Positions 4,408-39,131 of a DNA stretch of 64,000 nt are shown here, one piece after another (within the stretch, counting starts at the first letter, position 1; each line of letters starts with the position of its first letter). The position numbers were made by a program, and so were the translations under genes. Source of the DNA: Gracilibacillus suaedae (lineage in GTDB: Bacteria > Bacillota > Bacilli > Bacillales > Amphibacillaceae); contig NZ_JAGFVL010000039.1 in NCBI RefSeq assembly GCF_017599345.1, forward strand, positions 62,001 to 126,000, in the 5' to 3' direction. The notes under the pieces were generated by a model. It saw nothing but the letters and a program-made list of their open reading frames with translations. It was not told the origin of the DNA and made no database searches.

Positions 4408-4439
4408 GATTCTCACTCCTCTTTTAAATTTGAATCCAT

Positions 4440-4468: not shown

Positions 4469-4482
4469 TGATATGCTATACT
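4454..4482 (+). promoter_or_regulatory. Putative sigma-A promoter for the amidase gene
   Basis: A good -10 TATACT is at 4477-4482. The hexamer 17 bp upstream (TGTATG, 4454-4459) is a weak -35 and lies inside the palindrome, which fits a repressor-controlled promoter. Confidence 0.45.
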
Positions 4483-4520
4483 GTAAATAAGTGTTATGTA
4501 TAGAGGAGAGTGACTGATAT

Positions 4521-5963: not shown

Positions 5964-5980
5964 CCACCCTCCCCTATTTT

Positions 5981-6802
5981 TCACTCCTTAACAGATCCAG
6001 AAGTTAAACCAGATACGATCCGCTTTTGGAATAATAGTACTAAGACAACAATCGGGATTGTGACGATAACTGTTGCTGCGGAAATATCGCCCCACGGAAT
6101 AGAAAATTCACTTTGATACATAGATATCCCTACTGGAACAGTTCTCCATAAATCATCACTATTAATAGTTAAGGCAAACAAGTACTCATTCCAAGCAGCG
6201 ATAAAAACTAAAATCGCTGTCGTAAATATGCCCGGTGTTGCTAATGGGAAGATAATTTTACGAAATGTTTGAAATGGGCTTGCACCATCTAATTTTGCTG
6301 ATTCTTCTAATTCGAACGGAATCTTATTAAAAAAAGTGGCAAGCACCCAGATCGATAACGGTAAACTAATCGTAATATACGGGATGACTAATCCGATATA
6401 GCTATTACGCAATCCTAATTCTGTCACTAAGTTAAAAATGGGTGATATAATCGCAATTTGCGGAAACATCGATGCTGCGAGTACAACTCCTAAAAATAAT
6501 CCTTTCCCCTTGATTGGCAACCTTGTAACAGCATAGGCTGCAAATGCAGCACATCCAACTGCTAAAATCGTAGTTAAACTTGAAACGACAAAACTGTTTA
6601 ACATATAGCGCAATAACGGTCGATTCGTCAATGCAGCTTCATAAGATGATAATGTAGGACTCGTGGTAAACCAACGGAATGAAGTAAAAATTTCACCAAC
6701 TGGTTTTACCGAAGTCAAAAAAACCCATATAAATGGAAACATTACTAAAAAAACAAAGATAGCTAAAAATAGATAAAAACCAATACCAGCTCGTTTTCTC
6801 AT
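5981..6802 (-). CDS. Carbohydrate ABC transporter permease, MalG-type
   Basis: 273-residue inner subunit of a CUT1-type sugar importer, with six predicted membrane helices and the EAA cytoplasmic loop (EESAKLDGASPFQTF) that docks on the ATPase. It follows the MalF-type gene by 14 nt and ends the operon. No ATPase gene is present, so as in other Firmicutes CUT1 systems a shared MsmX/MsmK-like ATPase encoded elsewhere probably powers it. The sugar cannot be read from the permease. Confidence 0.94.
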   Translation of the reverse strand: MRKRAGIGFYLFLAIFVFLVMFPFIWVFLTSVKPVGEIFTSFRWFTTSPTLSSYEAALTNRPLLRYMLNSFVVSSLTTILAVGCAAFAAYAVTRLPIKGKGLFLGVVLAASMFPQIAIISPIFNLVTELGLRNSYIGLVIPYITISLPLSIWVLATFFNKIPFELEESAKLDGASPFQTFRKIIFPLATPGIFTTAILVFIAAWNEYLFALTINSDDLWRTVPVGISMYQSEFSIPWGDISAATVIVTIPIVVLVLLFQKRIVSGLTSGSVKE

Positions 6803-6816
6803 CTCAGTACCCCCTT

Positions 6817-8130
6817 CTATTTCGTACGTCCTGCGAATAAATCGGAACCAATTAATCGAACATAGATAAAACTAATCAATGCCACACAGAGAAATACGAT
6901 AACGGATAATACTGAACCCTCACCAAAGTTCTGCTGTGAGAACAAGGTAACGTATGCATACACGGAGATCGACTCTGTGGCATTCGCCGGTCCACCACCA
7001 GTTAACACATAAATTAAGTCGAAAACTCGAAACGCATCCAATGTTCTAAACAATAGAGCAACTAAAATAGCTGATTTTAGTAAAGGTAGTGTAATCTTAA
7101 AGAATTGTTGCCATTTATTTGCACCATCGACATTACTAGCTTCATACAATGAATTCGGGATCGTTTGCAATCCAGCAAGTAATAATAACGCCATGTATGG
7201 TGTTGTTTTCCAAACGTCCGCAAATATAATGGCAAACATACCACCATCAGAAGTGGACAATAGCCATGATGCACTTGGTATAATATTTAACTTCTCAAAA
7301 TAATGGGCAACGATCCCAGTTTGGCCATCGTATAAAAACCCCCACATCATGGCAGCAACCGCTGTAGGTATTGCCCATGGAATTAATACAGAAGCACGCA
7401 CGATCCCTCGTCCTTTAAATGCTCGGTTAATCAGTAAAGCAATTGCTAAACCTAAGACAAGTTCAAATCCAACAGAGACAACGGTAAAATAAAACGTATT
7501 CCACAAAGATTGCCACATACGTTGGTCTTGGAAGTATTTAGTGTAATTTGCAAAACCAATAAAATTTGATTCTAAAATATTATCACTTGTCCCTGCAAGT
7601 AAGGATCCAGTTTGTTCGAAACTTTGAGCTAACTGTTCATTGTCAGTAGAGTCCGCTATAGACAAGAAATCTGCCGATATATTCTCCAGAGCACCCCGAT
7701 AATCTGCGGCAAAATCATTATCTACCTTGGTATATTTGAGCTCAGAGTCTGATATGGGCTCAAAGTTCATCAACATTTCATCTATCTGTTCTATTTTTGC
7801 ATTAATTTCCGCATCACTTGTTAATTCCTGATGATAACCTTCGATCGCTTCCCTTGCTTGCTGAACAGCTTCTAACTGATCACCCTCAGCATTACCTTCT
7901 AGATCACTAAGCTGACCATCGATATAAAAGTAATTGTCAACATAACGTTCCAAATCAATATTAGCGTTCAACATTTTTTGTGACCTTGTCGGATCATTAA
8001 GGCGATAATCAAATAAACTGTTATAAAAAGACTGTGCAACCGGCCATAAAGTGACAACGATAACAAGTAGTAACGATGGTAAAATCATCGCATAACCTAG
8101 CTGTTTTTCGTTAAGTTGAAATTTTTTCAC
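6817..8130 (-). CDS. Carbohydrate ABC transporter permease, MalF-type, with large extracytoplasmic insert
   Basis: 437 residues, against roughly 290-310 for ordinary MalF-type permeases. After membrane segment 1 (about residues 12-36) comes a charged, hydrophilic and helical stretch at residues 50-188, then the usual core beginning NFIGFANYTKYF and the EAA loop YEASNVDGANKWQQFF. The insert would sit outside the membrane between TM1 and TM2, unlike E. coli MalF where the P2 loop lies between TM3 and TM4. It may contact the binding protein; that is inference. Same operon as the LacI regulator, lipoprotein and MalG-type gene. Confidence 0.93.
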   Translation of the reverse strand: MKKFQLNEKQLGYAMILPSLLLVIVVTLWPVAQSFYNSLFDYRLNDPTRSQKMLNANIDLERYVDNYFYIDGQLSDLEGNAEGDQLEAVQQAREAIEGYHQELTSDAEINAKIEQIDEMLMNFEPISDSELKYTKVDNDFAADYRGALENISADFLSIADSTDNEQLAQSFEQTGSLLAGTSDNILESNFIGFANYTKYFQDQRMWQSLWNTFYFTVVSVGFELVLGLAIALLINRAFKGRGIVRASVLIPWAIPTAVAAMMWGFLYDGQTGIVAHYFEKLNIIPSASWLLSTSDGGMFAIIFADVWKTTPYMALLLLAGLQTIPNSLYEASNVDGANKWQQFFKITLPLLKSAILVALLFRTLDAFRVFDLIYVLTGGGPANATESISVYAYVTLFSQQNFGEGSVLSVIVFLCVALISFIYVRLIGSDLFAGRTK

Positions 8131-8184
8131 TTTACCTTCCCTCCCCTTCTATCAAACACACCTTACGAAAGATGTACTTGAAAG

Positions 8185-8225
8185 AAAAAGCAAGATGAGT
8201 TCACACATGCCCATCTTGCTTTTTT
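8185..8225 (-). terminator. Intra-operon stem-loop with U-tract between binding-protein and permease genes
   Basis: Arms AAAAAGCAAGATG (8185-8197) and CATCTTGCTTTTT (8212-8224) form a strong hairpin; read leftward it ends in a T-rich stretch. Its place just after the lipoprotein gene suggests a leaky terminator or mRNA-stabilising hairpin that keeps binding protein in excess over permeases. Confidence 0.75.
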
Positions 8226-8243
8226 AGTTCGATTTGATACAAA

Positions 8244-9572
8244 TTAGTCTCCCATTGCTTCCTCCATTTTGGATTGCATATTTTCTGCAGCTTCCTCTGC
8301 TGATTGATCTCCAGTTAATACTTTAGATATTTCAATTTGCATGATATCTGAAATCTCCGGGTAAATCGGTGATACAGGACGTGGTACCGCAGATTGTAAA
8401 ACATTCACAAATTCAGGGTTTGCAAATAACGGCCCAGCTTCTTTTACTTCCGGATCTTCATAAAGCGCTTCCAATGTTGGCGCGCGTCCTCCATGGACCG
8501 CAATGATTTTCTGCCCCTCTTCACCAGTCATAAACTTTAAGAATTCCCATGCTTCTTCTGGATGTTCTGAATAACGGTTAATCATACCCATCCAGCCTCC
8601 TAAAGTGGCTGCATGACCTTCGTCACCTGCTGGAAGTGGTGCAATATCTACGTTACCGACAATAGATGAACGCTCCTCATCATTTGACGATGCTTGTAAA
8701 TATGGCCAGTTACGAGCAAACACCGCATCTCCTGCAATCCAAGCATTTTCTGTTTCTGTTTCCATAAAGTTCAAAATATTGTCAGGAACAAAATCTGAAT
8801 TCACAACTTCCGTTAATTTTTCTAGTCCTTTAACCGTCTCAGGACTGTTTACAACTACATTATTATCATCATCAATAACTTGCCCACCATAAGATGCTAT
8901 AAATTCAATATAGTTACATACTAACCCTTCATATTGTGCAGCTTGCATCAAGTATCCAAATTCTGTACCTTCTTCTCCTTGCAGCTCACTCGCTTGCTCT
9001 ATCAATTCATCCCAAGTTTCGGGTGCTTCCTCAACAATATCAGATCGATAGTAAAGCATCCCAGCATCTGTGAATTTGGGCATTGCCCATTGCTTGCCAT
9101 TAAAGTTTGCTGCTTGAACAGTACCTGGGAAATAGGCATCCATATCAATGCTATCTCTTTCAATAAAGCGATCTAATTCTAATGCATAGTTTGCTTGTGC
9201 AAATTCTGCTGGCCAGATAACATCTGCATCAAATACATCTACTTCAGAACTTTGTGAACTGAACATGGTTACGTATTGATCATGTGATTGACCTGTATCT
9301 GCCGGCATTTCTCTGAGTTCTACGTTAATATGGGGATGTTTCTCTTCGAAAGCTTCAATGACTAAATCAATGGCTCCTGTCGTATCTACACCACGTGCAT
9401 AAACGATGGTAACCTCTTCTGAAGCGCTTTCATTTCCTTCACTGGTTGTTTCTTCATCAGATGTACCTTCTGTATTATCTGTTTCTGATGTACTTTCACC
9501 ATTACACGCCACAACAAAAATAGCCAATACTGAGATAATACCTACTAGTAAAAGTCTTTTCATCTGTTCCAT
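8244..9572 (-). CDS. Sugar ABC transporter substrate-binding lipoprotein
   Basis: 442 residues: a lipoprotein signal with lipobox VVAC (Cys23), an acidic Ser/Thr/Glu linker at about 24-50, then a family-1 extracellular solute-binding fold (GAIDLVIEAFEEKHP, VDVFDADVIWPAEFA, GGWMGMINRYSEHPEEAWEFL). The VDVFDADVIWPAEFA block is reminiscent of trehalose/maltose-type proteins (ThuE/LpqY), but ligand is not established. AGGGGG sits 7 nt before the chosen ATG. It follows the LacI gene, with a candidate operator in the gap. Confidence 0.93.
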   Translation of the reverse strand: MEQMKRLLLVGIISVLAIFVVACNGESTSETDNTEGTSDEETTSEGNESASEEVTIVYARGVDTTGAIDLVIEAFEEKHPHINVELREMPADTGQSHDQYVTMFSSQSSEVDVFDADVIWPAEFAQANYALELDRFIERDSIDMDAYFPGTVQAANFNGKQWAMPKFTDAGMLYYRSDIVEEAPETWDELIEQASELQGEEGTEFGYLMQAAQYEGLVCNYIEFIASYGGQVIDDDNNVVVNSPETVKGLEKLTEVVNSDFVPDNILNFMETETENAWIAGDAVFARNWPYLQASSNDEERSSIVGNVDIAPLPAGDEGHAATLGGWMGMINRYSEHPEEAWEFLKFMTGEEGQKIIAVHGGRAPTLEALYEDPEVKEAGPLFANPEFVNVLQSAVPRPVSPIYPEISDIMQIEISKVLTGDQSAEEAAENMQSKMEEAMGD

Positions 9573-9615
9573 AACAGAACCCCCTATTACAGATTTTCGA
9601 TTTCGTTTAACCTTT

Positions 9616-9629
9616 TGAAATCGATTACA
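9616..9629. promoter_or_regulatory. LacI-type operator candidate upstream of the binding-protein gene
   Basis: TGAAATCGATTACA, an imperfect 14-bp palindrome with CG at its centre as in LacI/GalR operators. It lies 44 nt before the lipoprotein start and closely matches the site upstream of the lacI-like gene at 10799-10812. Confidence 0.65.
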
Positions 9630-9721
9630 TTTTGATTTTATATGAACTGTATATACAAGTCAACAATTTACGAAAATAAATTATCTTAATTTAATCGGCG
9701 GAAAAAGTTACACCGAAACTT

Positions 9722-10708
9722 TTAAGTAGATTCTCTTATAATTAATTCATGGTCTAATATGACATCTTCTATTTCCTCGCCTCGAATTTTCTTTATTAGC
9801 ATATCTACTGCTATACTTCCCATTTTATACATTGGTTGTGCAACCGTTGTCAATCTTGGAAATGTCATATTAGTAAAATCAATTTTGTCAAAGCCAACGA
9901 TCGCCATCTCATCGGGAACATGGACCCCTTGTATATTTAATTCCTTTAACGCACCAATAGCTAATACATCTGATACAGCAAAAACTGCAGTAAACTTCCC
10001 TGCCTTGTGACTCAACAGTGACCTCATCACCTGTTGACCTGCTTCAAACGTCACATTATTTGTTTTATAAATCCAATCATCCTCAAATTCTATGTCAAAT
10101 TCTTTCAGCGCTCTCAGAAAGCCTTTCTTTCGTTCGCGAGCGTAAAGAAATTTTTCATCACTATTGATCAAGACAATTCGCTTATGCCCTTGTTTTAAGA
10201 GAAACTTTGTCATCTGGTATGCTGCCAGTTCGCTATCAATTGTTATATAAGACAAACTTTTATCTTTGTCATACTCACTACATTGTACAATCGGAAATTG
10301 TCTAGCCAATTGTACGAGTTTATCCTTATCTATCGTGGGATCCATTGTTATAGCTCCATCTGCTAACCGATTTTTTAATAGATCAAAATAGACACTTTCC
10401 CTTTCCGTTTTAGAATGCGTTTGACAGACTAATATATTATACCCGTGATCTAGTGCAGTCTCTTCTATTCCTTCGACTATTCGCAAGTAGAAAGGGTTTG
10501 ATATTTTCGGTATCAAAACAAGCAACATTCTACTTTCAGAATTCCTGAGATTTCGACCTAAAATGCTAGGGGCATAATCTAATTCCTGCATTGCATCCTG
10601 AACTTTTTGTCTCGTTTTTTCTGTCACCGCAGACGGGGTATTCAAAACCCGTGAAACGGTCGCAACTGAAACACCTGCTTTTTTTGCCACGTCTTGTATA
10701 GTAGGCAT
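9722..10708 (-). CDS. LacI/GalR-family transcriptional repressor
   Basis: 328 residues: N-terminal LacI helix-turn-helix (TIQDVAKKAGVSVATVSRVL, residues 3-22), hinge helix, and a periplasmic-binding-protein-like effector domain ending in the usual VDMLIKKIRGEE block. It would sense the imported sugar or its phosphate. Head of a leftward operon with the ABC importer, 149 nt upstream of the lipoprotein gene. Two matching palindromes, one ahead of it and one ahead of the lipoprotein, point to autoregulation and control of the importer. Confidence 0.95.
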   Translation of the reverse strand: MPTIQDVAKKAGVSVATVSRVLNTPSAVTEKTRQKVQDAMQELDYAPSILGRNLRNSESRMLLVLIPKISNPFYLRIVEGIEETALDHGYNILVCQTHSKTERESVYFDLLKNRLADGAITMDPTIDKDKLVQLARQFPIVQCSEYDKDKSLSYITIDSELAAYQMTKFLLKQGHKRIVLINSDEKFLYARERKKGFLRALKEFDIEFEDDWIYKTNNVTFEAGQQVMRSLLSHKAGKFTAVFAVSDVLAIGALKELNIQGVHVPDEMAIVGFDKIDFTNMTFPRLTTVAQPMYKMGSIAVDMLIKKIRGEEIEDVILDHELIIREST

Positions 10709-10798
10709 AATACTACCTCCTTCCTAACATCATGAAGGTCACCATATAAATAAAAAATGAAGAATTCACCATATACGGACCTTGATTATCTATCAAAA

Positions 10799-10812
10799 TG
10801 TAATCCATTACA
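10799..10812. promoter_or_regulatory. LacI-type operator candidate upstream of lacI-like gene
   Basis: TGTAATCCATTACA has perfect 6-bp arms around a 2-bp centre. It lies 90 nt before the repressor start and resembles the site at 9616-9629, consistent with autorepression. Confidence 0.65.
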
Positions 10813-10936
10813 TATTTGATAACATTATAATATAGGTAAATATAAAGTCAATCTCTACCTGTTATATAACATTTTTTATCAAATAGGATGAAAATAGGAC
10901 ATTAAAATCAAATATCTATTCTCACTCCATTATAAA

Positions 10937-10969
10937 GAACCGAGATGAGTTTTCATACATTCTCGGTTC
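10937..10969 (-). terminator. Stem-loop terminator after padR-like gene
   Basis: Arms GAACCGAGA (10937-10945) and TCTCGGTTC (10961-10969) with a modest T-rich tail on the leftward strand. It separates the PadR unit from the LacI operon. Confidence 0.6.
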
Positions 10970-10988
10970 AAATCTTGCAACTTCCATT

Positions 10989-11492
10989 TTATTTTTGGTC
11001 CCCAGCAAGGATATCAAGCCATTTTATATCCGCTTCTAAGTGCAGTAATGCTCCTTCGATAAGCATTTTCATCGTATCATTTCCTGATTGCGTCATTTGC
11101 TTTTTTAAATGGGTTAAATGAAGGACTTCCTTTATCATCGTTTCTTTTTGTTTCTTGATCATTTTTTGTTTCTCATCGTATGCTACATGATCAGTACAGA
11201 GAAACTTAAAATAAAATTCGTCTTTTAACAATGACCGTCCGACCGGTTTTTCCAACCAATTCCAAAGTTCTTCTTTACCTGCTTGTGTTATCGTATAAAG
11301 CTTACGATCCTTTTGATCGTTTCCCGGAGACTCTACTGAAGCATCACGCTCCAACCGATCAAGAGTGGTATATACTTGGCCAGCATTGAGTGGCCACATT
11401 CCTTGAACAAGTTCTTCGAAACCTGTTTTCAATTCATAGCCGTGTCTCGGTTTTTCATATAATAATGCAAGCATAGAATGTTTTACTGACAT
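10989..11492 (-). CDS. PadR-family transcriptional regulator
   Basis: 167 residues: an N-terminal winged helix (HSMLALLYEKPRHGYELKTGFEEL ... QVYTTLDRLERD) and a C-terminal Vir-type helical dimerisation domain with Lys/Glu-rich helices. PadR proteins commonly repress efflux or stress genes. It follows a 77-residue membrane protein by about 35 nt on the same strand; that protein is the only obvious linked target. The inducer is unknown. Confidence 0.9.
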   Translation of the reverse strand: MSVKHSMLALLYEKPRHGYELKTGFEELVQGMWPLNAGQVYTTLDRLERDASVESPGNDQKDRKLYTITQAGKEELWNWLEKPVGRSLLKDEFYFKFLCTDHVAYDEKQKMIKKQKETMIKEVLHLTHLKKQMTQSGNDTMKMLIEGALLHLEADIKWLDILAGDQK

Positions 11493-11527
11493 GGTAATCC
11501 CCGCTTATTCATAGTTTATCGCTTCTT

Positions 11528-11761
11528 TCACTGGTATATGTGATGCTGTTCTGCTGTGGAGATTTCACCTGTTTCGTTATAGATCAAGAAGGCTAATCCA
11601 GCTTCTAGAATGAGTAAGAAGAGGAACAAAAATAAAAAGAATAAGCTATGTTTCCTCTTACCAAACAGATAACGCACCCCACCAAATAACAATATGAAGA
11701 CAAGTGATAGTATTTCAGCGACAATAAAGATTTCCCATTGGTATTGGACAATAAAATTCAA
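11528..11761 (-). CDS. Small membrane protein, possibly truncated
   Basis: 77 residues with two hydrophobic helices (about 10-33 and 38-62) separated by a basic loop RYLFGKRKHS, and a short polar tail. I recall longer Bacillaceae proteins beginning in this way and continuing past the second helix, so this may be a shortened paralogue; no alternative frame downstream restores a longer protein. It precedes the PadR gene in the same direction and may be its target. Function unknown. Confidence 0.6.
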   Translation of the reverse strand: MNFIVQYQWEIFIVAEILSLVFILLFGGVRYLFGKRKHSLFFLFLFLFLLILEAGLAFLIYNETGEISTAEQHHIYQ

Positions 11762-11790
11762 TTTTCCCCCCCTTTTTTATGGCCGATTGT

Positions 11791-11828
11791 AAAAAAGCCG
11801 AAAAAGTACTACATGTACTCTTTCGGCT
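11791..11828 (-). terminator. Rho-independent terminator after racemase-like gene
   Basis: Hairpin with arms AGCCGAAAAAGTAC and GTACTCTTTCGGCT (one mismatch) followed, on the leftward strand, by a run of T residues. It lies 8 nt past the stop codon. Confidence 0.85.
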
Positions 11829-11835
11829 AACTCCT

Positions 11836-12462
11836 TTATATTTTTATCTCTTTCAAGGCATCAACCGGGGTCATAACGTTAAACCCTTTATTTTTTAAGT
11901 GTGTGGCTGCCTGGTGCATGGAAAGCTGAGGAAATACTATCTGCCCTTGAGGTGGATTATTTTCGATATAGTCAATAATCACTTCACTATATGCGTCTTG
12001 CTTATTGGACATTAGTAGCGCAAAAGCATGATCAATGACCTCCACCTGGAAATCAGCTTTTACGTTTGGTTGCTGTTTAAGTCGATTAATAGTACCTTTC
12101 ACCGTAGCGGGATTGGTAAAATATAAAGTTGCAGTTGGATAATCAATGAGAGACTTGAGAAATAATTCATCTATTTTCAATATGGGAGTATCATTTATCT
12201 TAGTTTCCTTTATGTATAGACTATAATTGGTACATGTGATTAAAATAGCATCTGGCTCAGCAGATGCCAACCATTCTAGTTGTGTCTGTACTCGTTTTTC
12301 AATCTGTTGAGTTGATTTATTTTTAATCGCATCAATAAGGCCTGGATCAACATGGTGAATTTGTTCTACGTTGGTACTTTTCAGTGCTGACTCTGTATAT
12401 TCAATGTTACTATGGTGTGCGTGTAAAACTACTAGTTTAGCTTTTCTATTAAGATTCATCAT
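11836..12462 (-). CDS. Aspartate/glutamate/hydantoin racemase-like protein
   Basis: 208 residues. The family signature is the LITCTNYSLY block, giving the first catalytic cysteine; a second conserved cysteine, normally in a GCT motif in the C-terminal half, is not seen (the equivalent region reads IVFPQLSMHQAA). Such one-cysteine members are usually not classical racemases, so activity is uncertain. I prefer the ATG at 12462, preceded by AGAAGG at a somewhat long distance, over the ATG at 12507, which has no clear site. Monocistronic with its own terminator. Confidence 0.68.
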   Translation of the reverse strand: MMNLNRKAKLVVLHAHHSNIEYTESALKSTNVEQIHHVDPGLIDAIKNKSTQQIEKRVQTQLEWLASAEPDAILITCTNYSLYIKETKINDTPILKIDELFLKSLIDYPTATLYFTNPATVKGTINRLKQQPNVKADFQVEVIDHAFALLMSNKQDAYSEVIIDYIENNPPQGQIVFPQLSMHQAATHLKNKGFNVMTPVDALKEIKI

Positions 12463-12586
12463 GTTCAAACCCAACCTTCTAATGGATAATTCCGTTATGA
12501 TACTCATTTTACTAGTAGTACCTGATTATTTCCAAGCATTATTCGGGAGATTCCATGGGATGTGGTGAAACAGAGTATAGCAGGAT

Positions 12587-12782
12587 CTTACGGACACGAT
12601 TACAGATTTTCACGATTTTGTGTCCATAAGAATCTACCTTATGGACACATGTTGACTTGTTTACTTTAAACTGTCTGTAAGACGTATTCTTGCAGACAAA
12701 ATTTCTCACATTCCCCTCATACTGTCCATAAGATTTGTTTTTACGGACACAATTTTGCATATGGACTCTAAACTGTCCGTAA
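12587..12782. repeat. 51-bp tandem repeat array with alternating inverted TGTCCRTAAG motifs
   Basis: Nearly four copies of a 51-52 bp unit. TGTCCATAAG-like words start at 12621, 12672, 12723 and 12774, and their reverse forms CTTACGGACAC/CTTATGGACAC at 12587, 12638, 12689 and 12740. Each unit can therefore fold as a hairpin. No coding or spacer-like variation suggesting CRISPR. A 73-residue open frame spans it only because 51 is a multiple of three. Confidence 0.85.
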
Positions 12783-12794
12783 AAAATCTAAATT

Positions 12795-13403
12795 TCAATA
12801 CAACAGCTTATATTTCAAGTGTGTAACATTTGAACCATCTGTAACTTCTTGAGATTCTAACTTTATTTGTTCTGAGCCAATTTGATCAAACAAGCGAATA
12901 CCTTTTCCCATTAGGATTGGCGCTACATGCAGATGCATTTCATCCAGAAGACCGGCTTTTATACATTGCTGAGCAATACTTGCTGTTCCAATACTGACAT
13001 TTTTACCATTTGCAGCTTCTTTCGCCTGTACAATAGCATCTTTAACTCCACTGGTGACAAAAGTAAAGCTTGTCTTATCTTCTTCATAACTTTCCGGAGC
13101 TTCATGTGTTACGATAAAAATAGGAACATCCTGAATCGGATGACTGCCACCCCAACCATTAACAATATCAAAAGTTCTCCTTCCTACAACCATCGCCCCT
13201 GTCATGGGAACTGGACCATCAAAAATTTCTTTGTTTGTGGCAGAAAGCTTAAAAAATTCATTGTAACGACTGGATTGATCACCACTGAACAACCAGTTTT
13301 GAATCAATTCCCCTCCTTCCCCTAGCGGCTGCTTTTGGTTATCATTCACACCTGCGATAAAACCATCAAGTGACATAGAAATATCAAGAATAACTTTTGA
13401 CAT
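12795..13403 (-). CDS. Dihydrofolate reductase-like (RibD C-terminal) protein
   Basis: 202-residue Rossmann-like reductase of the RibD_C/DHFR superfamily: N-terminal ILDISMSLDGFIAG, central GAMVVGRRTFDIVNGWGG and C-terminal HLHVAPILMGKGIRLF blocks. Such stand-alone proteins bind NADPH, but most have no proven substrate; a riboflavin role is not implied. AAGGAG precedes the ATG by 8 nt. Single gene, ending next to the tandem repeat array. Confidence 0.9.
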   Translation of the reverse strand: MSKVILDISMSLDGFIAGVNDNQKQPLGEGGELIQNWLFSGDQSSRYNEFFKLSATNKEIFDGPVPMTGAMVVGRRTFDIVNGWGGSHPIQDVPIFIVTHEAPESYEEDKTSFTFVTSGVKDAIVQAKEAANGKNVSIGTASIAQQCIKAGLLDEMHLHVAPILMGKGIRLFDQIGSEQIKLESQEVTDGSNVTHLKYKLLY

Positions 13404-31388: not shown

Positions 31389-31700
31389 TCACATTTCAAA
31401 GTATTTACTGTAATGATTCGCACAATTGGGATTAAATGGTGCATTACAATTACTACACTTTTGATTTTGGATATATTCGTTTATTGTTAATTCATGAAAA
31501 CAATTACCACAAAGTATTGCTTTTTCATTAAACTCTTCCTTTACCCAAATTTGTCGCTCATGGTCAGTACTTGCATCATGGCATTTATAACAAGGATAAT
31601 AGCTATTACAACATTTAAACTTGATCGATACAATATCATTTTTCCCATGATAATGTTTACACCTACCTGCAGAGTCAACAGGGAATCCAAGTATCTCCAT
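31389..31700 (-). CDS. CHY-type zinc-finger protein
   Basis: 103 residues dense in Cys/His pairs: RCKHYHGKNDI, KCCNSYYPCYKCHDAS, HERQIW, LCGNCFHELT and KCSNCNAPFNPNC follow the CHY zinc-finger order, normally binding three zinc ions. Bacterial members have no firm function. ATG at 31700 has GAGG 7 nt upstream. It is separated from the zinc-starvation operon by a terminator, so co-regulation is not evident, but a zinc-rich small protein beside zinc chaperones is notable. Confidence 0.85.
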   Translation of the reverse strand: MEILGFPVDSAGRCKHYHGKNDIVSIKFKCCNSYYPCYKCHDASTDHERQIWVKEEFNEKAILCGNCFHELTINEYIQNQKCSNCNAPFNPNCANHYSKYFEM

Positions 31701-31766
31701 CATTACACCTCTTTTATGGCTTCTTTGTAGCATAATCAAATATTCTCATATTTTATTACACGATGC

Positions 31767-31803: not shown

Positions 31804-32973
31804 TTAAACAAACGAAGGTAATGGATCCTTAAAGGAATGATTCTCTTTTTCTTCTTCGGTTACTAAACACGCATTCAATGAATTAATAATAGCTTCCTTA
31901 TCCATATTACTCCCAATAAAAACAAGCTCTGTCATTCTATCTCCTGTTTGTTCATTCCACCCTTCAAACAATGCAGGGTCCTGTGCCTTTAATTTTTCTT
32001 GTTCCTCTTCAGTGTAGCTAGCTAACCACCTACCTGCACCTTCTAAAGTTAACATCGATCCCGCTTGTGACAAGAGTCCTGCAACTTCATTTCTTGTCAC
32101 TAACCAAAAGAAACCTTTTGCCCGAATAATTTCTGATGGCCAATTTTCCAACCATTGATGAAAACGCTCTGGGTGGAAGGCTTTCCTGCTTCTATAAACA
32201 AATGAACTAATACCATACTCTTCCGTTTCCGGGGTATGCTCCTCATTCAATTCCTTAATCCAGCCTGCTCCTTGACTTGCCTCTTCAAAATTAAAATGAT
32301 TAGTATGAAGTACCTGTAATGGATCAATTTGTCCAAAGCTTGTCGGAATAATCTTTGCTTCCGGATTTAATTTAGTAAGCAAGTTGTTTAATTTTGTTAC
32401 TTCACTGTCAGACAGCCTATCTATTTTATTTAAAACCATCACATTCGCAAACTCAATTTGATCAATTAGTAAATCAACAATACCTCTTTCATCATCATCG
32501 GAAACGTGTAATTGCCTGTCGATTAATAAATCCTCCGATTGATAATCTTCCCAAAACTGCTGACCATTGACAACTGTTACCATGGTATCAAGTTGGAAAA
32601 AGTTATTTAAGTCTATTCCTAATTCTTCATCATGATAGACAAAACTTTGTGCTACTGGAATAGGCTCAGACACACCACTTGATTCGATTAACACATAATC
32701 CATATCCAGTTTTGCCAATTTCTCTAATTCCACTACTAAATCTTCTCGTAGTGTGCAGCAAATACAGCCATTTGTCATTTCTACCATATTTTCTGCTGTT
32801 CTCACAAAGCCACCTTCTTTCACAAGCTTTGCGTCCACATTAATTTCGCTCATATCGTTAACGATAATCGCTATTTTTAATCCATGCTGATTTTTCAGGA
32901 GATGATTAAGTAAAGTTGTCTTACCAGCTCCTAAAAATCCGCTTAAAACTGTTACCGGTATTTTTTTACTCAT
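31804..32973 (-). CDS. COG0523 (CobW/YciC-type) GTPase metallochaperone, copy 1
   Basis: 389 residues. Walker A GFLGAGKTT (12-20), NDMSEINVD switch region, the metal-binding CICC motif at residues 70-73 and NKID (G4) are all present; the C-terminal CobW_C domain holds SFVYRSRKAFHPERF. Such G3E GTPases deliver zinc to client enzymes under zinc shortage. Its ATG overlaps the TAA of the dCTP deaminase gene in a TAATG junction. Last gene of the operon, closely related to copy 2 at 33535-34725. Confidence 0.94.
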   Translation of the reverse strand: MSKKIPVTVLSGFLGAGKTTLLNHLLKNQHGLKIAIIVNDMSEINVDAKLVKEGGFVRTAENMVEMTNGCICCTLREDLVVELEKLAKLDMDYVLIESSGVSEPIPVAQSFVYHDEELGIDLNNFFQLDTMVTVVNGQQFWEDYQSEDLLIDRQLHVSDDDERGIVDLLIDQIEFANVMVLNKIDRLSDSEVTKLNNLLTKLNPEAKIIPTSFGQIDPLQVLHTNHFNFEEASQGAGWIKELNEEHTPETEEYGISSFVYRSRKAFHPERFHQWLENWPSEIIRAKGFFWLVTRNEVAGLLSQAGSMLTLEGAGRWLASYTEEEQEKLKAQDPALFEGWNEQTGDRMTELVFIGSNMDKEAIINSLNACLVTEEEKENHSFKDPLPSFV

Positions 32974-33518
32974 TACTTGTCTTCCTCTCTATCCATATAC
33001 ACTCGACTAGGTGTAGCACCTTCTTGAAATAAATACTTTCCACTATAACCTTCGGTAGCTTGATCAACTTGCGCTATTACCAATTGACACACCCGCATAC
33101 CGACTTTTAATTGAACAGGTACACGATTTGCGTTAAATAACTCTAAAGTGATTTGACCGGAGAAGCCCGGATCAATCCAACCCGCGTTTTGAATAAAAAC
33201 ACCAAGTCTTCCGACGGAACTTCTCCCTTCAACAAAAGCCGTTAAATGGTCAGGTAAACGAATTTGCTCTAATGTTGTTCCTAACATAAAAGTCTTTGGT
33301 GGAATCGTGACAACTCCCCCATCTGTTACTTGCATTTCATGATAACTTGCCGACTTGTCGACAGATAAATAAAGGGTAGACATGTCATCTACTACTAAGA
33401 AATGCTTTCCTAAACATAAATCAATCGACGCTGGCTGTATGCTTACATCCTTGTAAGGAATAATTGAAATTATTTCATCGTGTATGAATTGTTTAATCGT
33501 TTGTCCTGATAAAATCAC
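32973..33518 (-). CDS. dcd: dCTP deaminase
   Basis: 181 residues of the trimeric dUTPase-like fold. Signature blocks: QPASIDLCLG, FVEGRSSVGRLGVFIQNAGWIDPGFSGQITLEL with the catalytic Glu, and a C-terminal GKY...GATPSRVY tail. It turns dCTP into dUTP (or dUMP in bifunctional forms) for thymidylate synthesis. GTG start with GGGGTGAG upstream. It sits between two COG0523 GTPase genes inside the zinc operon; Gram-positives usually rely on zinc-dependent dCMP deaminase, so a zinc-free bypass is a plausible reason for its presence (inference). Confidence 0.92.
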   Translation of the reverse strand: MILSGQTIKQFIHDEIISIIPYKDVSIQPASIDLCLGKHFLVVDDMSTLYLSVDKSASYHEMQVTDGGVVTIPPKTFMLGTTLEQIRLPDHLTAFVEGRSSVGRLGVFIQNAGWIDPGFSGQITLELFNANRVPVQLKVGMRVCQLVIAQVDQATEGYSGKYLFQEGATPSRVYMDREEDK

Positions 33519-33534
33519 CTATTCTCACCCCTAA

Positions 33535-34725
33535 TTAAGAAATTCGCCAGTTAAATGGATTTCTAAATTTCGACCAATCTTCGGTCATTTCTGACTCACT
33601 TAACAAACAACGTTCCAATTCGCTCTTTATTTCTTCAACATCTAAATCCATTCCAATGAAAACTAGCTTAGTATGGCGATCTCCAAAATCAGCGTCCCAT
33701 AAATCTTTCACTTCAGGATTATTCTTAAAAATTTCCTTTTGTTGGCCTTTTGGTAATGATGCTACCCAATAGGCTAACGGTTCAACCGATACTGATGGAC
33801 CAGCTTGCGATAACAATAAAGCCATATCATAATGAGTCGCACACCATATCACACCTTTTATCCGAACAATTTCTTTTGGTAAATCTTGATACCAGCTCAT
33901 TAATCGTTCCGTGTGAAAAGGCAGTCTGGATGTATACACGAACGAACTAATTCCGTATTCCTCTGTTTCCGGGGTATGATTCTCTACTCCAGCATTGAGT
34001 TCCTTCAACCAACCAGCTGATTCACTAGCTTTCTCAAAATCAAATAAACGGGTATTTACTATTTCTTTTGGATCTACCTTACTATGTTGGGTTCGGATAA
34101 TTTTCGCTTCAGGCTGTAACTTACGTATGACTTTCTCTAACTTCTGTAGATCTTCCTCTTTCACTAAATCTGTTTTATTCAAAATAAGGACATTACAGAA
34201 TTCAATTTGGTCAAGTAATAAATCGGCAATATTGCGCGTATCTTCGTCACCTACCGCTTGTTGTCTTTCTAGCAAGCTGTCTCCTGAACCGAAATCATGC
34301 CAAAAGCGATTAGCATCGACAACTGTAACCATCGTATCCAAGCTGCAATATTTCGTTAGATCAATTCCCATCTCTTCATCAATATAAGAGAAAGTTTGTG
34401 CAACTGGAACAGGCTCACTAATTCCGGATGATTCAATCAAAATATAATCAACAACACCTTTTTTCACGAGTCTTTCTACTTCTACCAATAAATCCTCTCG
34501 TAATGTACAGCAAATACAACCATTAGACATTTCTACTAATTTTTCTTCGGTACGGGAAAAGCCACCTTGTGATTGTACTAACTCACTATCTATATTGACT
34601 TCACTCATGTCATTGACAATTACCGCAACCTTTAATCCTTCTCGGTTATGTAAGACATGATTCAATAGCGTAGTTTTTCCAGCGCCTAAATATCCACTTA
34701 GTACAGTAACAGGAATCTTTTTCAT
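33535..34725 (-). CDS. COG0523 (CobW/YciC-type) GTPase metallochaperone, copy 2
   Basis: 396 residues. Walker [14 protein letters not shown] at residues 70-73, NKTD G4 motif, and a CobW_C domain with [15 protein letters not shown]. The same NDMSEVNID switch as copy 1 and similar overall layout point to a duplication. AAAGGAGGAG precedes the ATG. Sixteen nucleotides ahead of dcd, so co-transcribed. Probable zinc insertase for an enzyme that must keep working in zinc shortage. Confidence 0.94.
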
Positions 34726-34789: not shown

Positions 34790-36463
34790 TTAGGATAAGA
34801 AATATAGTCCTGCAGCAAGAAAAGCTGCACTAACGACACTTGTCAGCATTTGCTTCCACGCAATGGATAAAGCATTCTTCCAACTTAGTTCTCTACCGAT
34901 AGTAAATAACGTAACAAGACAAGCTGATAGTGTTGATGCTAAGTAAACAAGCATAAATATTTGACTGATTGACATATCCATGAACAAACTGCCCTGCCCC
35001 TCATTTAAGACAAGTAATCCATCCTTTCTAATAAAGGAAAAGATCAATCCAGGTGCTACATCTGTTGGTAATGAAAATAGATATAATAACGGCATTGCAA
35101 GCCAACTAAAAATGGATAATATTCCTACTGTTTCTAGTACAGATGCAATCAAACAAATCAACAAGAAAATCGGCATAGCTTGAAGTAAAAATTGTTTAAT
35201 CACACTAGAAACCTTCCACCAAAATGAACTCCAATTGATTCCTTGTAAATAAGGTAGGGGGGCAATTCTAGTTAGCTCGTTCGTGGTGGTTCTGTTCCAA
35301 ATCCTTGTATGAATAGCTCCAACTACAAAAAGGAAGAACAAATAAGGAATAAATAATAAAGGAGCATGTGCTGCATTGAAAATAGATAACGTTGCTCCTA
35401 TTTGATAACTGCAGGCTGAACCAAAAGCAAGCATTGATACACAAGATACTCGGGTGCAGCTACTACAGCTTCTGCTTTGCATGACTGCGACAACGTTACA
35501 ACCAAAACCAGTGATAACAGGAAGCAAATCTCTTCCTGTTAATCCAATTTTACGAAGCCATGGATCTAACGCATTTGTTAAATGCTCTTGTATACCTATC
35601 TCTTCTGTAATAGTCGTAGTTACGCTAATTAACAAGACAACAGGAAATGCCCAGAGAAACGAGTACCAACCTAAGGTAATGACTCCATAATCACCAACCA
35701 ATACATTTGCTAAAAAGCCAGGTGTCTGCTCTAGCCATACAGTTATCGGTGTAAGCAGATACTGATCTGTAATCGGTTCTAGCCAACTGACAAATAAATA
35801 GGCTGCAAACACTGGTAAAGCAAACATAGACAGTATAATCAGGCAAGCTAGCATTGGTCCTACTAACCTCAAACGGAACACCGGAATCAGTTTATTAACT
35901 GGATTAGGTGTTGAAGGTAGAAAACGAAGAATACTTGCAGTAACAGCCCAACTTCGAGCATGCTCGATACATGTGATTACTTTTGCTTGTTCTGCTTGGT
36001 CCATTTTTCTAGCATTAACCCAAACAACTGGTAATTGTAACAACTCCTTTACTCTTTTTTGTTCAGCGTTAGAAGGCTGGTATTTATCCTGGTGAGTTGC
36101 TACAATAGCTACTTGTTTACCTTTCAAATTCAATTCTTTCTGTAACTGTATTAACTCCTCCTTCAGTTCCGTTGCTTTAACAACTAATAGAATAGTTTGA
36201 TTCTCTTCTAAATGATCTAATGTCAGCTGTGTACTTATGCTGTCCATATCGAATTGAAGTCCTGGTAAATCTGTTAATCGCATATTACTGTTTAATTTAC
36301 AGGACGCCGTGAGGGCCGCTATGGTGGAGCCTTTCACATTACTTGTCAGTGCGCGTTTTTCACCAGTCAAATGGCGAAACAAACCTGATTTACCAACAGA
36401 TTCACAACCTACTAGCATCACATCTATTGGACAAGCAGCAGAAGACTGCACGCTTTCTAGCAT
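34790..36463 (-). CDS. FeoB-like GTPase-permease with cysteine-rich gate
   Basis: 557 residues, shorter than FeoB (about 650-770). An N-terminal G domain has Walker A GCESVGKS (19-26) and DLPG (65-68), but the G4 motif reads THQD (123-126) instead of NKxD. Two nucleoside-recognition gate domains follow; the first has GFGCN (319-323) and then cysteines at 333, 336, 341 and 351, where iron FeoB has few. About eight membrane helices. No FeoA nearby. Its zinc-operon setting suggests it imports zinc or another divalent metal; unproven. ATG at 36463, GAGAGG upstream, overlaps the FAD gene by 7 nt. Confidence 0.82.
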   Translation of the reverse strand: MLESVQSSAACPIDVMLVGCESVGKSGLFRHLTGEKRALTSNVKGSTIAALTASCKLNSNMRLTDLPGLQFDMDSISTQLTLDHLEENQTILLVVKATELKEELIQLQKELNLKGKQVAIVATHQDKYQPSNAEQKRVKELLQLPVVWVNARKMDQAEQAKVITCIEHARSWAVTASILRFLPSTPNPVNKLIPVFRLRLVGPMLACLIILSMFALPVFAAYLFVSWLEPITDQYLLTPITVWLEQTPGFLANVLVGDYGVITLGWYSFLWAFPVVLLISVTTTITEEIGIQEHLTNALDPWLRKIGLTGRDLLPVITGFGCNVVAVMQSRSCSSCTRVSCVSMLAFGSACSYQIGATLSIFNAAHAPLLFIPYLFFLFVVGAIHTRIWNRTTTNELTRIAPLPYLQGINWSSFWWKVSSVIKQFLLQAMPIFLLICLIASVLETVGILSIFSWLAMPLLYLFSLPTDVAPGLIFSFIRKDGLLVLNEGQGSLFMDMSISQIFMLVYLASTLSACLVTLFTIGRELSWKNALSIAWKQMLTSVVSAAFLAAGLYFLS

Positions 36464-37569
36464 TGACACCTCTCCCCACACATCGAAAGATCATCAAGAT
36501 AGAAGTTCTCTCGTTTGTACTCTGCTAATATCGATAAATCTAAGCCTAACTGGCTACCAATCGTTTCTGCTATGATTGCAAATCGCTGACGAAATTTGTA
36601 AATATAACAGAAAATATGATCATCGTGGCGAAGTTCTGGTCCTGCTAAAAATAAACCAGGAGTCGTTTTAGCTTCATCTTTTTCATTGACTAGTACTTCG
36701 CCATGCTCGCCACGTGTGACTAGATTTTCGATCTTCGATGTACTGCCCGAGAAACCAGTAGCTAATATGGGCTTCTCTGCTGTTGAGTAAACTTTCCCTC
36801 TACTTGTATAAACGTCATAACCCGAAGACACTGACTCTATTCTTGTGACAATTGTGTCGCCAACCACCGTTAACAAATGGGAGCCTAACAAATGACGAAC
36901 ACGACTATATGTGTAAGGAGACAGAGCTATACTTGGATCACTATCATCAATTTCCCAAGTATTTGTTTTAGCTATTAAAGTAGTTTTCTTACCTAAACGT
37001 CCTAATTGGAATGCGGCATCCATACCACTTTCATAACCTCCGATGATAATAAAATCATCACCTTCTAGCTCTTGCCAAGATGGAATTAAACTATTGTGCA
37101 CGCCAAGCTCTGCACCTGGGAAAGACTTTAAATCGGGATATTGATACTGCCCTGCTGCCCAAATAACATAGCGACTTTGATATGTCCCTTGGGTCGTATC
37201 TATCGAAAAAATACCATCTTTTTTATAGATTTGATCTACTTGTACTCCTTTTTCAATAGGAAGCGTAAAATGCGCTGCCACTATATCAAGATAATCTGCA
37301 TATGCTTCACCAGTAGGATGTTCCATATCTAATGTGTAAGCTGGTGAAGTTTTCGGTACAATGGCATTTAAATCTGTCTGTCCAAACCCTTGCGCAGGAA
37401 ACGAAGGGGTTATAAACCTCATTTCCTTAGGCCAACGCAGAAAAGATGCTCCTACTTCTTCTTTTTCTAATATCAAATAGGAAATACAGTTCATTTGTTG
37501 TAATAAAGCGGCGACACCAATTCCGGAAGGTCCAGCTCCTACAACGATGACATCATATATTTTATTCAT
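36457..37569 (-). CDS. FAD-dependent NAD(P)-binding oxidoreductase with C-terminal cysteine tail
   Basis: 370 residues. FAD-binding GAGPSG at 11-16, a second Rossmann motif IIGGYESGMDAAFQLG, and LATGF near the C-terminal half, as in the CzcO/YpdA-like flavoprotein group. The last residues are CGERCQC, a possible metal or disulfide site. First gene of the zinc operon, directly behind a Zur-like box; overlaps the FeoB-like gene by 7 nt. Reductant supply for thiol-metal handling is a guess. ATG at 37569 is preferred over the GTG 9 nt upstream. Confidence 0.85.
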   Translation of the reverse strand: MNKIYDVIVVGAGPSGIGVAALLQQMNCISYLILEKEEVGASFLRWPKEMRFITPSFPAQGFGQTDLNAIVPKTSPAYTLDMEHPTGEAYADYLDIVAAHFTLPIEKGVQVDQIYKKDGIFSIDTTQGTYQSRYVIWAAGQYQYPDLKSFPGAELGVHNSLIPSWQELEGDDFIIIGGYESGMDAAFQLGRLGKKTTLIAKTNTWEIDDSDPSIALSPYTYSRVRHLLGSHLLTVVGDTIVTRIESVSSGYDVYTSRGKVYSTAEKPILATGFSGSTSKIENLVTRGEHGEVLVNEKDEAKTTPGLFLAGPELRHDDHIFCYIYKFRQRFAIIAETIGSQLGLDLSILAEYKRENFYLDDLSMCGERCQC

Positions 37570-37583
37570 TATTACCACCCCTC

Positions 37584-37604
37584 AAATCATAATGATTTCG
37601 ATTT
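37584..37604. promoter_or_regulatory. Zur-like box ahead of the FAD/FeoB-like/COG0523 operon
   Basis: AAATCATAATGATTTCGATTT; its core TCATAATGATTTCGA matches 12 of 14 defined positions of the Bacillus Zur 7-1-7 core TCGTAATNATTACGA. It overlaps a leftward TTGCGA - 16 bp - TATGAT promoter, leaving a short leader before the ATG at 37569. Confidence 0.8.
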
Positions 37605-37617: not shown

Positions 37618-38580
37618 TTAAGCAAGACAATATTGAAAACCTCTCTCTAACTCCTGATAATCGAGATTCTTCCCAATAAATACTATCTCACTTTGGCGCT
37701 TTTCATTATTCGCCCATTTAAAACCTTCTGTACCTGCAAATAGCATATGTACACCTTGGAAAACAACTCTTTTATCCAGTTGCTTTATATGGAGCACTCC
37801 TTTATAACGATATAAATGTTCTCCCTTAAACTGCACTAAATAGGCGAACCATTTATTCACTTTCTCTAAATCAAGTGGACGTTCTTCTCGAAAAACAAAA
37901 GAAGTGACTTGATCATTATGATGATGGTGATGTCTTTCGGCTAATAGGCTTGGATCCATTTTTAATACATTACCTAATTCAAAGGATTTTTTCCCTATTA
38001 AATCTTGGCTTTCTACATCTGCATATGTTGTGTAAATTCGTTTTGCATGTGGATTCATGTTAATCAGCTGTTGTTCCAGTTCTTGCTTGTCATCTTCTGT
38101 GATCAAATCGATTTTATTTAATAGCAGTACGTCAGCAAAAGCGATTTGTTGCCCTGGTTCTTCTTCTTTTAGATGTTGCCAGATATGCTTGGCATCGACC
38201 ATCGTAATCACACTGTCTATTTCGAATGATTTTGCTGTTTGTTCATCCATTAAAAAAGTTTGAATAACCGGAGCTGGATTAGCCATCCCTGTTGTTTCAA
38301 TGACAACACGATCTATTTTTTCTTGTTCCATCAAATTACTTAATATATGAATTAAATCTCCTCGTACATTACAACAAATACAACCACTGTTTATCTCAAT
38401 AATTTCTTCCTTTGTTGAAACCACCAAGTGACTATCAATGGATGTGTCACCAAATTCATTAATAATGACAGCAACTTTCTGTTCTGGCATGTCCTTTAAT
38501 AAGTTATTCAGCAATGTTGTTTTACCTGCACCTAAAAAACCAGTTAAAATGGTTACCGGAATCGTTTGTTCTTTTGACAA
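37618..38580 (-). CDS. COG0523 (CobW/YciC-type) GTPase metallochaperone, copy 3, His-rich
   Basis: 320 residues. Walker A GFLGAGKT (14-21), CICC at 67-70, NKID, and a His5 run at residues 217-221 (ERHHHHHNDQ) typical of zinc-handling members. Its NEFGDTSID switch differs from copies 1 and 2, so it belongs to another COG0523 subgroup. TTG start at 38580 with AGGAGG 9 nt upstream; longer frames lack a site. Downstream of rpsN2 by about 150 nt and probably under the same Zur-regulated promoter. Confidence 0.93.
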   Translation of the reverse strand: MSKEQTIPVTILTGFLGAGKTTLLNNLLKDMPEQKVAVIINEFGDTSIDSHLVVSTKEEIIEINSGCICCNVRGDLIHILSNLMEQEKIDRVVIETTGMANPAPVIQTFLMDEQTAKSFEIDSVITMVDAKHIWQHLKEEEPGQQIAFADVLLLNKIDLITEDDKQELEQQLINMNPHAKRIYTTYADVESQDLIGKKSFELGNVLKMDPSLLAERHHHHHNDQVTSFVFREERPLDLEKVNKWFAYLVQFKGEHLYRYKGVLHIKQLDKRVVFQGVHMLFAGTEGFKWANNEKRQSEIVFIGKNLDYQELERGFQYCLA

Positions 38581-38732
38581 CGGAATTTCCCTCCTCTTAC
38601 TATGTACAAAGGATTTTTGTATCAAAAATAAGACAGGGACAAAATTTAGATGCCCCTGTTACTTATTTTAATTCTCTCAGTTAATAAAGCAGTGTGGTTC
38701 TGACAGGACGATTTGCCCCATGATAACCTCTC

Positions 38733-39002
38733 TTACCAACTAGATTTTTTCACGCCTGGTATTTGTCCTTTATGAGCATAATCTCTAAAGGCAATACGTG
38801 ACATCTTAAATTTCCGCATGTAACCTCTTGGTCTTCCAGTAATTTCGCAACGACTTTTTAAGCGAGTTGGAGAAGAGTCTCGCGGCAATTTACGAAGTGC
38901 TTCATAATCACCCTTCTCTTTTAACTCTCTTCTCAAGGCTGCATATTGTTCAACCATTTTCTGGCGTTTTTTCTCTTTTGCTATTTTAGATTTTTTAGCC
39001 AT
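38733..39002 (-). CDS. rpsN2: Ribosomal protein S14, zinc-free paralogue
   Basis: 89 residues. C-terminal [33 protein letters not shown] is S14, but the CxxC...CxxC zinc ribbon of the essential 61-residue form is absent; this is the C-minus form. In B. subtilis the equivalent (YhzA) is Zur-repressed and replaces the zinc form when zinc is scarce, freeing zinc. Two Zur boxes flank its promoter here, which fits. Heads the unit with the third COG0523 gene. Confidence 0.96.
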
Positions 39003-39056: not shown

Positions 39057-39077
39057 AAATCGTAATGATTACGCCTT
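39057..39077. promoter_or_regulatory. Zur box 1 upstream of rpsN2
   Basis: AAATCGTAATGATTACGCCTT; core matches 13 of 14 positions of the Zur consensus. Lies at and just past the likely transcription start, about 55 nt before the ATG. Confidence 0.88.
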
Positions 39078-39084: not shown

Positions 39085-39113
39085 ATTATAGTACATTTCA
39101 TTTTAAATGTAAA
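39085..39113 (-). promoter_or_regulatory. Sigma-A promoter of rpsN2
   Basis: Leftward TTTACA (39108-39113) and TATAAT (39085-39090) with an exact 17-bp spacer. Zur box 2 overlaps the -35 and box 1 covers the start region, so both boxes would block transcription. Confidence 0.82.
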
Positions 39114-39131
39114 TAGTAATGATTACGATTT
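39111..39131. promoter_or_regulatory. Zur box 2 upstream of rpsN2
   Basis: AAATAGTAATGATTACGATTT differs from the Zur 21-mer consensus at a single position. Centre lies 54 bp from box 1. Confidence 0.9.

Follow-up and report, generated by a model that had tools for sequence, protein, structure and literature searches.

A FeoB-like permease with a cysteine-tailed flavoprotein partner as a candidate Zur-regulated zinc importer

The gene for a FeoB-like permease was identified on the minus strand of a window from Gracilibacillus suaedae (34790..36463; ATG at 36463, stop codon ending at 34790), the window being the whole stretch of 64,000 nucleotides that was analyzed. The permease family is well supported as a candidate Zur-regulated zinc importer, with the zinc reading based on genomic context. 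The real unit comprises two genes, the first for a flavoprotein with a cysteine tail and the second for the permease. In the module as we infer it, Zur would bind upstream of the pair, the permease would transport zinc into the cell and the flavoprotein would serve a thiol exit on the cytosolic side, a reading that we hold to be fairly probable. Under starvation, bacteria are generally taken to acquire zinc via ZnuABC/AdcABC, ZIP proteins and a few other systems, and a widespread Zur-controlled relative of FeoB would add a new kind of bacterial zinc uptake. The permease is probably a so far unstudied bacterial route for zinc uptake; a literature search, mainly at the level of abstracts and largely of journals free of subscription, did not reveal any account of a FeoB relative linked to Zur. 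A preliminary description of this DNA had proposed the permease as a candidate zinc importer. It had overlooked the flavoprotein partner and the cysteine C437, as well as the facts that several lineages lack the G domain and that the family extends to about nine phyla and to plasmids.

The two-gene unit and its gene run

The permease of 557 amino acids contains a variant G domain (residues 1 to about 180), Gate 1 and Gate 2. The start of its gene shares 7 nt with the end of the flavoprotein gene (36457..37578, minus strand, 373 amino acids, Pyr_redox_3), and it is the fourth gene in a run of seven on the minus strand. The run starts with rpsN (38733..39002), a paralogue of S14 with a single cysteine (the zinc-free type), followed by a short COG0523 (CobW) GTPase (37618..38625), the flavoprotein, the permease, a ZigA-like COG0523 GTPase (33535..34725), the dCTP deaminase gene dcd (32973..33518) and a second ZigA-like COG0523 GTPase (31804..32973). 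With 509.9 and 505.2 bits, respectively, the two ZigA-like proteins are below the cut-off of the NCBIfam ZigA model NF038288 (600 bits), and they were assigned to COG0523/cobW via PF02492. The dCTP deaminase encoded inside this zinc-starvation gene run could perhaps provide a zinc-free bypass of dCMP deaminase. Its gene was also observed within the run in many relatives, and a CHY zinc-finger protein is encoded just downstream of the run (31389-31739). ZnuA-type proteins are already found at three places in the genome of G. suaedae, so that a need for a further zinc importer is not evident, which weakens the zinc-importer reading.

Relation to iron FeoB

Comparison by hhalign with a profile of 33 FeoBs, E. 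coli FeoB included, resulted in an end-to-end alignment of 530 columns (probability 100, E 1.8e-66), and the permease is therefore regarded as a true relative of FeoB. FeoB_N (PF02421) matched with 54.2 bits (cut-off 27; 217.2 bits for E. coli FeoB) and Gate (PF07670) with 51.9 bits (cut-off 29.6). The profile match and the two Pfam matches would also fit an ordinary iron FeoB located by chance in a Zur operon. However, the permease scored only 89.5 bits with the FeoB equivalog TIGR00437, far below the cut-off of 315.65, and FeoB_C (PF07664) and FeoB_Cyto (PF17910), which both match E. coli FeoB, gave no match to the permease at E 1e-3. Across the G. suaedae genome no match to PF07664 or to FeoA (PF04023) was found, so that the absence of FeoA, first described for the vicinity of the gene, extends to the entire genome. 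Nor was any FeoB proper found in this genome above the TIGR00437 cut-off, the best piece reaching 59.3 bits. A phylogeny of the gate had been suggested as a check. In an unrooted tree, made with a quick method and including 34 of the 97 family rows, the family formed a branch separated from 35 FeoBs by one split with an SH-aLRT value of 100 and a long stem. An ordinary iron FeoB was rejected on the basis of this tree, the absence of FeoA and FeoB_C and the regulator sites described below (Zur-type and not Fur-type in 60/62 Bacillota loci, with a Zur motif in Proteobacteria too), and is considered very improbable.

As judged from sequence, the permease belongs to a FeoB-like family that is distinct from FeoB proper and has a partner of its own. 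Common to both are the G domain, the two Gate regions, the gate-1 cysteines of GFGC and SC and the gate-2 cysteine. FeoB contains FeoB_C, FeoB_Cyto and a G4 motif of the form N-x-x-D, whereas the permease lacks both domains and has T-x-x-D. The permease further differs from FeoB in three extra gate-1 cysteines, C437, the flavoprotein partner, Zur sites instead of Fur sites, a G domain that is missing from some lineages of the family and a genome without FeoA.

A short type of FeoB, of about 590 amino acids and located behind FeoA, was observed in L048 and L053 and, judged by gene sizes, in L049, L050, L054 and L055. It is followed downstream by a protein of about 200 amino acids, which in L053 had a weak match to nicotianamine synthase under the cut-off, and then by an LPG-synthase-TM protein. 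Fur cores with 0-3 mismatches were present in the five loci of this type that were scored.

Conserved cysteines and the G4 motif

Gate 1 of the permease contains C322 (in GFGC), C333, C336, C341 and C351, and Gate 2 contains R479-K-D-G482 and C515. The translation of the open reading frame agrees with the cysteines at 333, 336, 341 and 351 and with the length of 557 amino acids given in the preliminary description. C322, C333, C341, C351, C437 and C515 were each present in 97/97 aligned family rows, where the invariance of C322, like that of N323-A326 and R479-G482, is partly due to selection by the seeds of the GTDB scan (G[FY]GCNVVA and RKDG...), while C333, C336, C341, C351, C437 and C515 are outside these seeds. 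C336 was present in 94/97 rows and replaced in 3/97. Some genomes occur twice among the 97 rows, and L132, which ends at the contig end, was left out.

In FeoB, the counterparts of C322 and C351 are its two gate-1 cysteines (GFGC and SC), each found in 33/33 aligned FeoBs, and C515 aligns with the gate-2 PC. The only cysteines specific to the family relative to FeoB are C333, C336, C341 and C437, the last being a further family-specific position that the alignment adds to those first described; the residues seen there in the 33 aligned FeoBs are S, T, I, V or A. A cysteine between both gate-1 cysteines was found in 1/36 FeoBs having a recognisable segment. The gate had been described as cysteine-rich with four cysteines, and this holds for the extra C333, C336 and C341 but not for C351, which is an ordinary FeoB gate cysteine. 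The earlier view that iron FeoB has a single conserved SC proved incorrect, since two conserved gate-1 cysteines and the gate-2 PC are present.

The G4 motif of the permease is T123-H-Q-D126. It had been rightly distinguished from NKxD, but calling it degenerate was too strong, as the variant is family-wide: among the 89 rows having a G domain, T-x-x-D was found in 86 and S-x-x-D in 3, with the Asp in 89/89. G1 Gly/Lys/Ser-Thr, G3 D-x-P-G and the G4 Asp are kept in 89 or 90 lettered rows, and a degenerate G domain was rejected for this clade. T-x-x-D is also the G4 motif of working GTPases, for example EngB.

Predicted structure and topology

The permease model had a pLDDT of 88.7 and a pTM of 0.84, with a pLDDT of about 78-86 in the gate-1 block. 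Its G domain is similar to NFeoB (Z 19.9) and gave the best Foldseek matches of the model. In a second structure comparison the membrane part, a helical bundle, was similar to the CNT structure 5u9w (Z 16.0, rmsd 4.9, 311 aligned), a likeness of fold only. Together with the name "Nucleoside recognition" that Pfam gives to the Gate domain, this fold could suggest a nucleoside transporter. We find such a function hardly credible for a protein with full-length FeoB profile homology, invariant cysteines and a zinc-starvation context, to which the CNT Pfam families gave no match at E 1e-3.

Near gate 1 the model contains helices 310-318 and 323-332, with GFGC between them, and helices 338-346 and 352-364, with SACSY at the break. 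The arrangement is repeated in the second half by helices 467-487 and 499-525. By analogy with CNT, 310-318/323-332 can be read as a re-entrant hairpin with GFGC at its tip. The segments 290-309, 333-338, 389-411 and 524-530 were assigned to the cytosolic side, and their K/R counts fit this assignment, with averages of 1.1-3.2 each compared to 0.1-0.6 for the other loops. C333, C336 and C341 therefore most likely form a group at the cytosolic opening of gate 1, beside C322 and C351. In a model of P. aeruginosa FeoB, the gate-1 Cys429 is located on the cytoplasmic face (PMC4847171).

Zur-type control sites

Three Zur-box-like sites with up to three mismatches were found in the window, compared to a mean of 0.01 in shuffles, in line with the Zur-boxed operon first described. 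All are on the minus strand. One (37584..37604, 2 mismatches to the 21-mer) is directly upstream of the flavoprotein-permease pair, and the others (39057..39077, 2 mismatches, and 39111..39131, 1 mismatch) are upstream of rpsN. Genome-wide, 15 Zur-like sites were found and none for a reversed control pattern; on contig C54, three of the sites outside the window are located beside a gene of the Fur family and one for a ZnuA-like protein. All searches with the 21-mer of Bacillus Zur and with cores for Zur, Fur and PerR used consensus sequences.

A Zur core with up to two mismatches was present in 60/62 non-redundant Bacillota loci (0.8 expected from shuffles), whereas a Fur core (up to two mismatches) was present in 1/62 and a PerR core in 1/62. 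The search covered the co-directional gene run and 300 bases upstream, and the shuffled sequences came from a random walk that preserves dinucleotides and in rare cases reverts to shuffling single bases. Six duplicates (L058, L059, L063, L078, L100 and L127) were dropped from the regulator and neighbor counts, and L132 is absent from the regulator count. The preliminary description had set its zinc link against Fur control among iron FeoBs, and these counts, together with the separate clade, speak for the zinc link. The two Bacillota loci without a Zur core, L060 and L114, have close upstream sites with 3 and 4 mismatches, respectively. When the search was confined to the 350 bases ahead of the flavoprotein start, or of the permease start at loci without the flavoprotein, 49/62 Bacillota loci had a Zur core of up to three mismatches, a count made with single-base shuffles; in many of the other 13 the pair follows ZigA-like or rpsN genes within one run. 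The pattern was reversed at ten FeoB loci from this order, with 0-3 mismatches for Fur and 4-5 for Zur, these being the lowest values within 700 bases before FeoB, taken without shuffles and in a search region unlike that of the 62 loci.

The enterobacterial Zur motif, as printed in PMC6103462, was found in 6/6 proteobacterial loci with 0-2 mismatches, 1.16-1.38 kb upstream of the permease and hence just before the flavoprotein; the best sites in one shuffle per whole locus had 3-6 mismatches. The Bacillus-type Zur core (up to three mismatches) was found in none of the non-Bacillota loci. The zinc role is best argued from these sites, because the pair is tied to two different operator sequences, in Bacillota and in Proteobacteria.

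Zur-type control would fit any zinc-sparing function, including the import of a substitute metal. A divalent metal such as Fe, Mn or Co could be imported during zinc starvation to load zinc enzymes or their stand-ins. FeoB relatives carry iron, P. gingivalis FeoB2 is a FeoB-type manganese transporter, and G. suaedae has no FeoB proper. According to PMC10353542, the second feo cluster of Rhodobacter capsulatus carries manganese, an earlier example of a FeoB relative adapted to a different metal. A FolE2-type cyclohydrolase is among the neighbors, and FolE_IB enzymes use Fe/Mn/Co according to PMC13192273. The permease is set apart from the FeoB-type manganese transporters by its zinc-starvation context and cysteine-rich gate, a comparison made by description and not by sequence. 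We regard a substitute metal as unlikely, since the extra invariant thiols would suit a soft metal such as zinc over Mn or Fe, and 61/62 loci have no Fur-type core and 61/62 no PerR-type core.

Neighboring genes in other genomes

COG0523 genes were searched for up to 7 kb on each side of the permease in 74 named loci and were found in 51. By phylum, they were present in 35/45 loci of Bacillota, 3/6 of Pseudomonadota, 4/5 of Chloroflexota, 5/11 of Verrucomicrobiota, 2/2 of Kiritimatiellota, 1/1 of Binatota and 1/1 from a cyanobacterial MAG, and absent from the single loci (0/1 each) of Acidobacteriota, Myxococcota and an unassigned genome. Outside Bacillota and Proteobacteria, the COG0523 neighbor is the only pointer to zinc. 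Other zinc-starvation neighbors of family loci are rpsN, folE2, ZinT and an AdcA/ZnuA-like protein.

On a K. pneumoniae plasmid (L185) the pair is located amid zinc-sparing genes in an island at 1526-13210. In this one record the pair is surrounded by carbonic anhydrase, folE2, dksA, hisI and cysS, and by two GTP-binding genes (one named zigA) and two FUR-family genes. Zur motifs with 0 mismatches were found at two places, and one with 3 mismatches is located 34 bases before the flavoprotein. The company of the pair on the plasmid repeats the zinc-sparing context of Bacillota.

The flavoprotein partner

The flavoprotein adjoins the permease in 18/18 members from the order. It was found, anywhere in the locus stretch, at 86/93 loci, in 84 as an open reading frame and in two more (L069, truncated, and L122) by tblastn; at the remaining 7/93 it was found by neither search. 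In 250 genomes of the class, drawn separately from the order sample with some genomes common to both, 17 contained the flavoprotein (E 1e-40) and the same 17 contained the permease, always with the two genes side by side. The draw gave two more permease matches (G511 and G555, with identities of 28 and 26%), which resemble ordinary FeoB. The gene order varies, and the permease is first in several Verrucomicrobiota.

The closest solved structure is the putative flavin monooxygenase 3d1c of S. aureus (profile E 1.1e-128, TMq 0.86), which is similar over the full length including the C-x3-C-x-C end. Next closest are the YpdA/Bdr bacillithiol disulfide reductases (Foldseek E 2.5e-21), although the score with TIGR04018 (YpdA) was 93.5 bits against a cut-off of 339.9. 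YpdA uses a Cys at the GxGPxG turn, whereas the flavoprotein has Ser or Ala there in 18/18 rows and differs also in its cysteine-rich tail. C324 and the C-terminal C367-x3-C371-x-C373 were invariant in 18/18 order rows. The C-x3-C-x-C pattern, counted anywhere in the last 120 residues, was present in 82/84 flavoproteins, and the two without it are from Kiritimatiellota. The last nine residues of the flavoprotein model had a pLDDT below 50, and such a disordered tail is as expected of a flexible arm. A Zur-regulated oxidoreductase and COG0523 GTPase of C. glutamicum, cg0795/cg0794, have been suggested to act jointly in zinc delivery (PMC2823685). The accessible part of that account does not mention FeoB, and the likeness of the flavoprotein to cg0795/cg0794 is one of description only.

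Since zinc needs no reduction, it is not evident that zinc import should require an NAD(P)H flavoprotein, and the partner raises the question what a reductase would do for a metal that is redox-inert. In another reading, the permease moves a zinc complex or thiol compound on which the flavoprotein acts, or serves as a membrane redox/thiol relay. The close pairing with a YpdA-like flavoprotein would fit, as would the CNT-like fold of the permease model, CNT-fold proteins being carriers of small organic substrates; near L036 and L040 there are also runs that, judged by gene sizes and order, resemble oligopeptide/metallophore-type ABC genes. However, the FeoB gate cysteines C322, C351 and C515 are kept and FeoB carries metal, no Pfam CNT family matched, and the GxGPxG turn lacks Cys in 18/18 rows. 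Transport of such a compound, or a relay, appears rather improbable.

Returning to zinc import as the preferred reading, the pair would be repressed by Zur and expressed when zinc runs out. Zinc would then cross the FeoB/CNT-type core of the permease along C515, C351 and C322, the FeoB-type gate cysteines forming an inner site, and the C333-x2-C336 loop and C341 would catch or select a soft metal at the cytosolic exit. The C-x3-C-x-C tail of the flavoprotein may keep the exit thiols reduced via its flavin. Alternatively, the tail may take the metal and pass it to the neighboring ZigA/CobW chaperones, and the COG0523 GTPases may also take zinc directly from C333/C336/C341.

At loci without the flavoprotein, its replacement by a thioredoxin reductase was considered and rejected: the upstream open reading frame of L086 is a phosphoesterase, those of L085, L099 and L120 had no Pfam match, and an NCBIfam scan of the upstream frames in L086, L099 and L120 revealed no thioredoxin reductase. 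At two loci lacking the flavoprotein, the frame immediately preceding the permease encodes a protein of 310 (L099, 6091-7023) or 285 amino acids (L120, 143-1000), and neither had a Pfam or NCBIfam match. In the two Shouchella loci L061 and L065 the permease, CobW and dcd are kept with no flavoprotein at the locus, and in L061 ZinT is located nearby.

Distribution and loss of the G domain

A long match to the family was found in 18/397 genomes of the order, G. suaedae included, and fragments in a few more (G041, G170 and G338). Of 144 relatives detected in the GTDB scan, 80 were kept, and the nearest named among these are Gracilibacillus species with 91 and 87%. The family is found in Bacillota, Chloroflexota, Verrucomicrobiota, Kiritimatiellota, Binatota, Acidobacteriota, Myxococcota, Pseudomonadota and one cyanobacterial MAG, several of these phyla being represented by single metagenome-assembled contigs that are possibly mis-binned. 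Among plasmids, 535 records matched at E 1e-5, 521 of them over at least 80% of the query, and 499/535 are from Klebsiella.

The G domain is absent in 7/18 order members (L041-L047), which are 376-387 amino acids long. In family f117 of the class sample, 6/7 members (L221-L224, L233 and L234) have a short N-terminal remnant without P-loop, and G592 keeps the P-loop; two of the remnant members were scanned and gave a Gate match and no G-domain match. The seven cysteines are kept in 7/7 f117 members. Zur cores were found before the flavoprotein in the seven order loci without G domain (0-2 mismatches) and in the f117 loci (0-3 mismatches). L224 has a 3-mismatch site at a distance of 61 bases upstream of the flavoprotein, and a 3-mismatch site of L234 is at the called start of the flavoprotein frame. 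Members with no G domain or with only the remnant were observed still to have gate cysteines, flavoprotein and Zur-type sites.

The G domain could serve as an accessory gate and have been given up by some lineages. Whether FeoB is a channel or a transporter is an open question (PMC4847171), and the members without G domain are a natural test of whether the GTPase drives or only gates the FeoB core. If they do work, GTP gating would not be required for metal to pass through a FeoB/CNT core. It is a more tentative proposal, and one that we judge somewhat more likely to fail than to hold, that the pair is a new class of zinc importer, made up of a FeoB-type permease and an NAD(P)H flavoprotein whose cysteine tail reduces or unloads the thiol exit, spread over about nine phyla and Klebsiella plasmids and with a dispensable G domain.

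Decayed copies of the permease were also observed. In G338 (L052) fragments are located beside pieces of ZigA-like and dcd genes with a Zur-type site, and G041 contains a C-terminal fragment (L021/L051). In L232 (G673) the permease frame is present as two open reading frames of about 300 amino acids, the result of a split or a frameshift.
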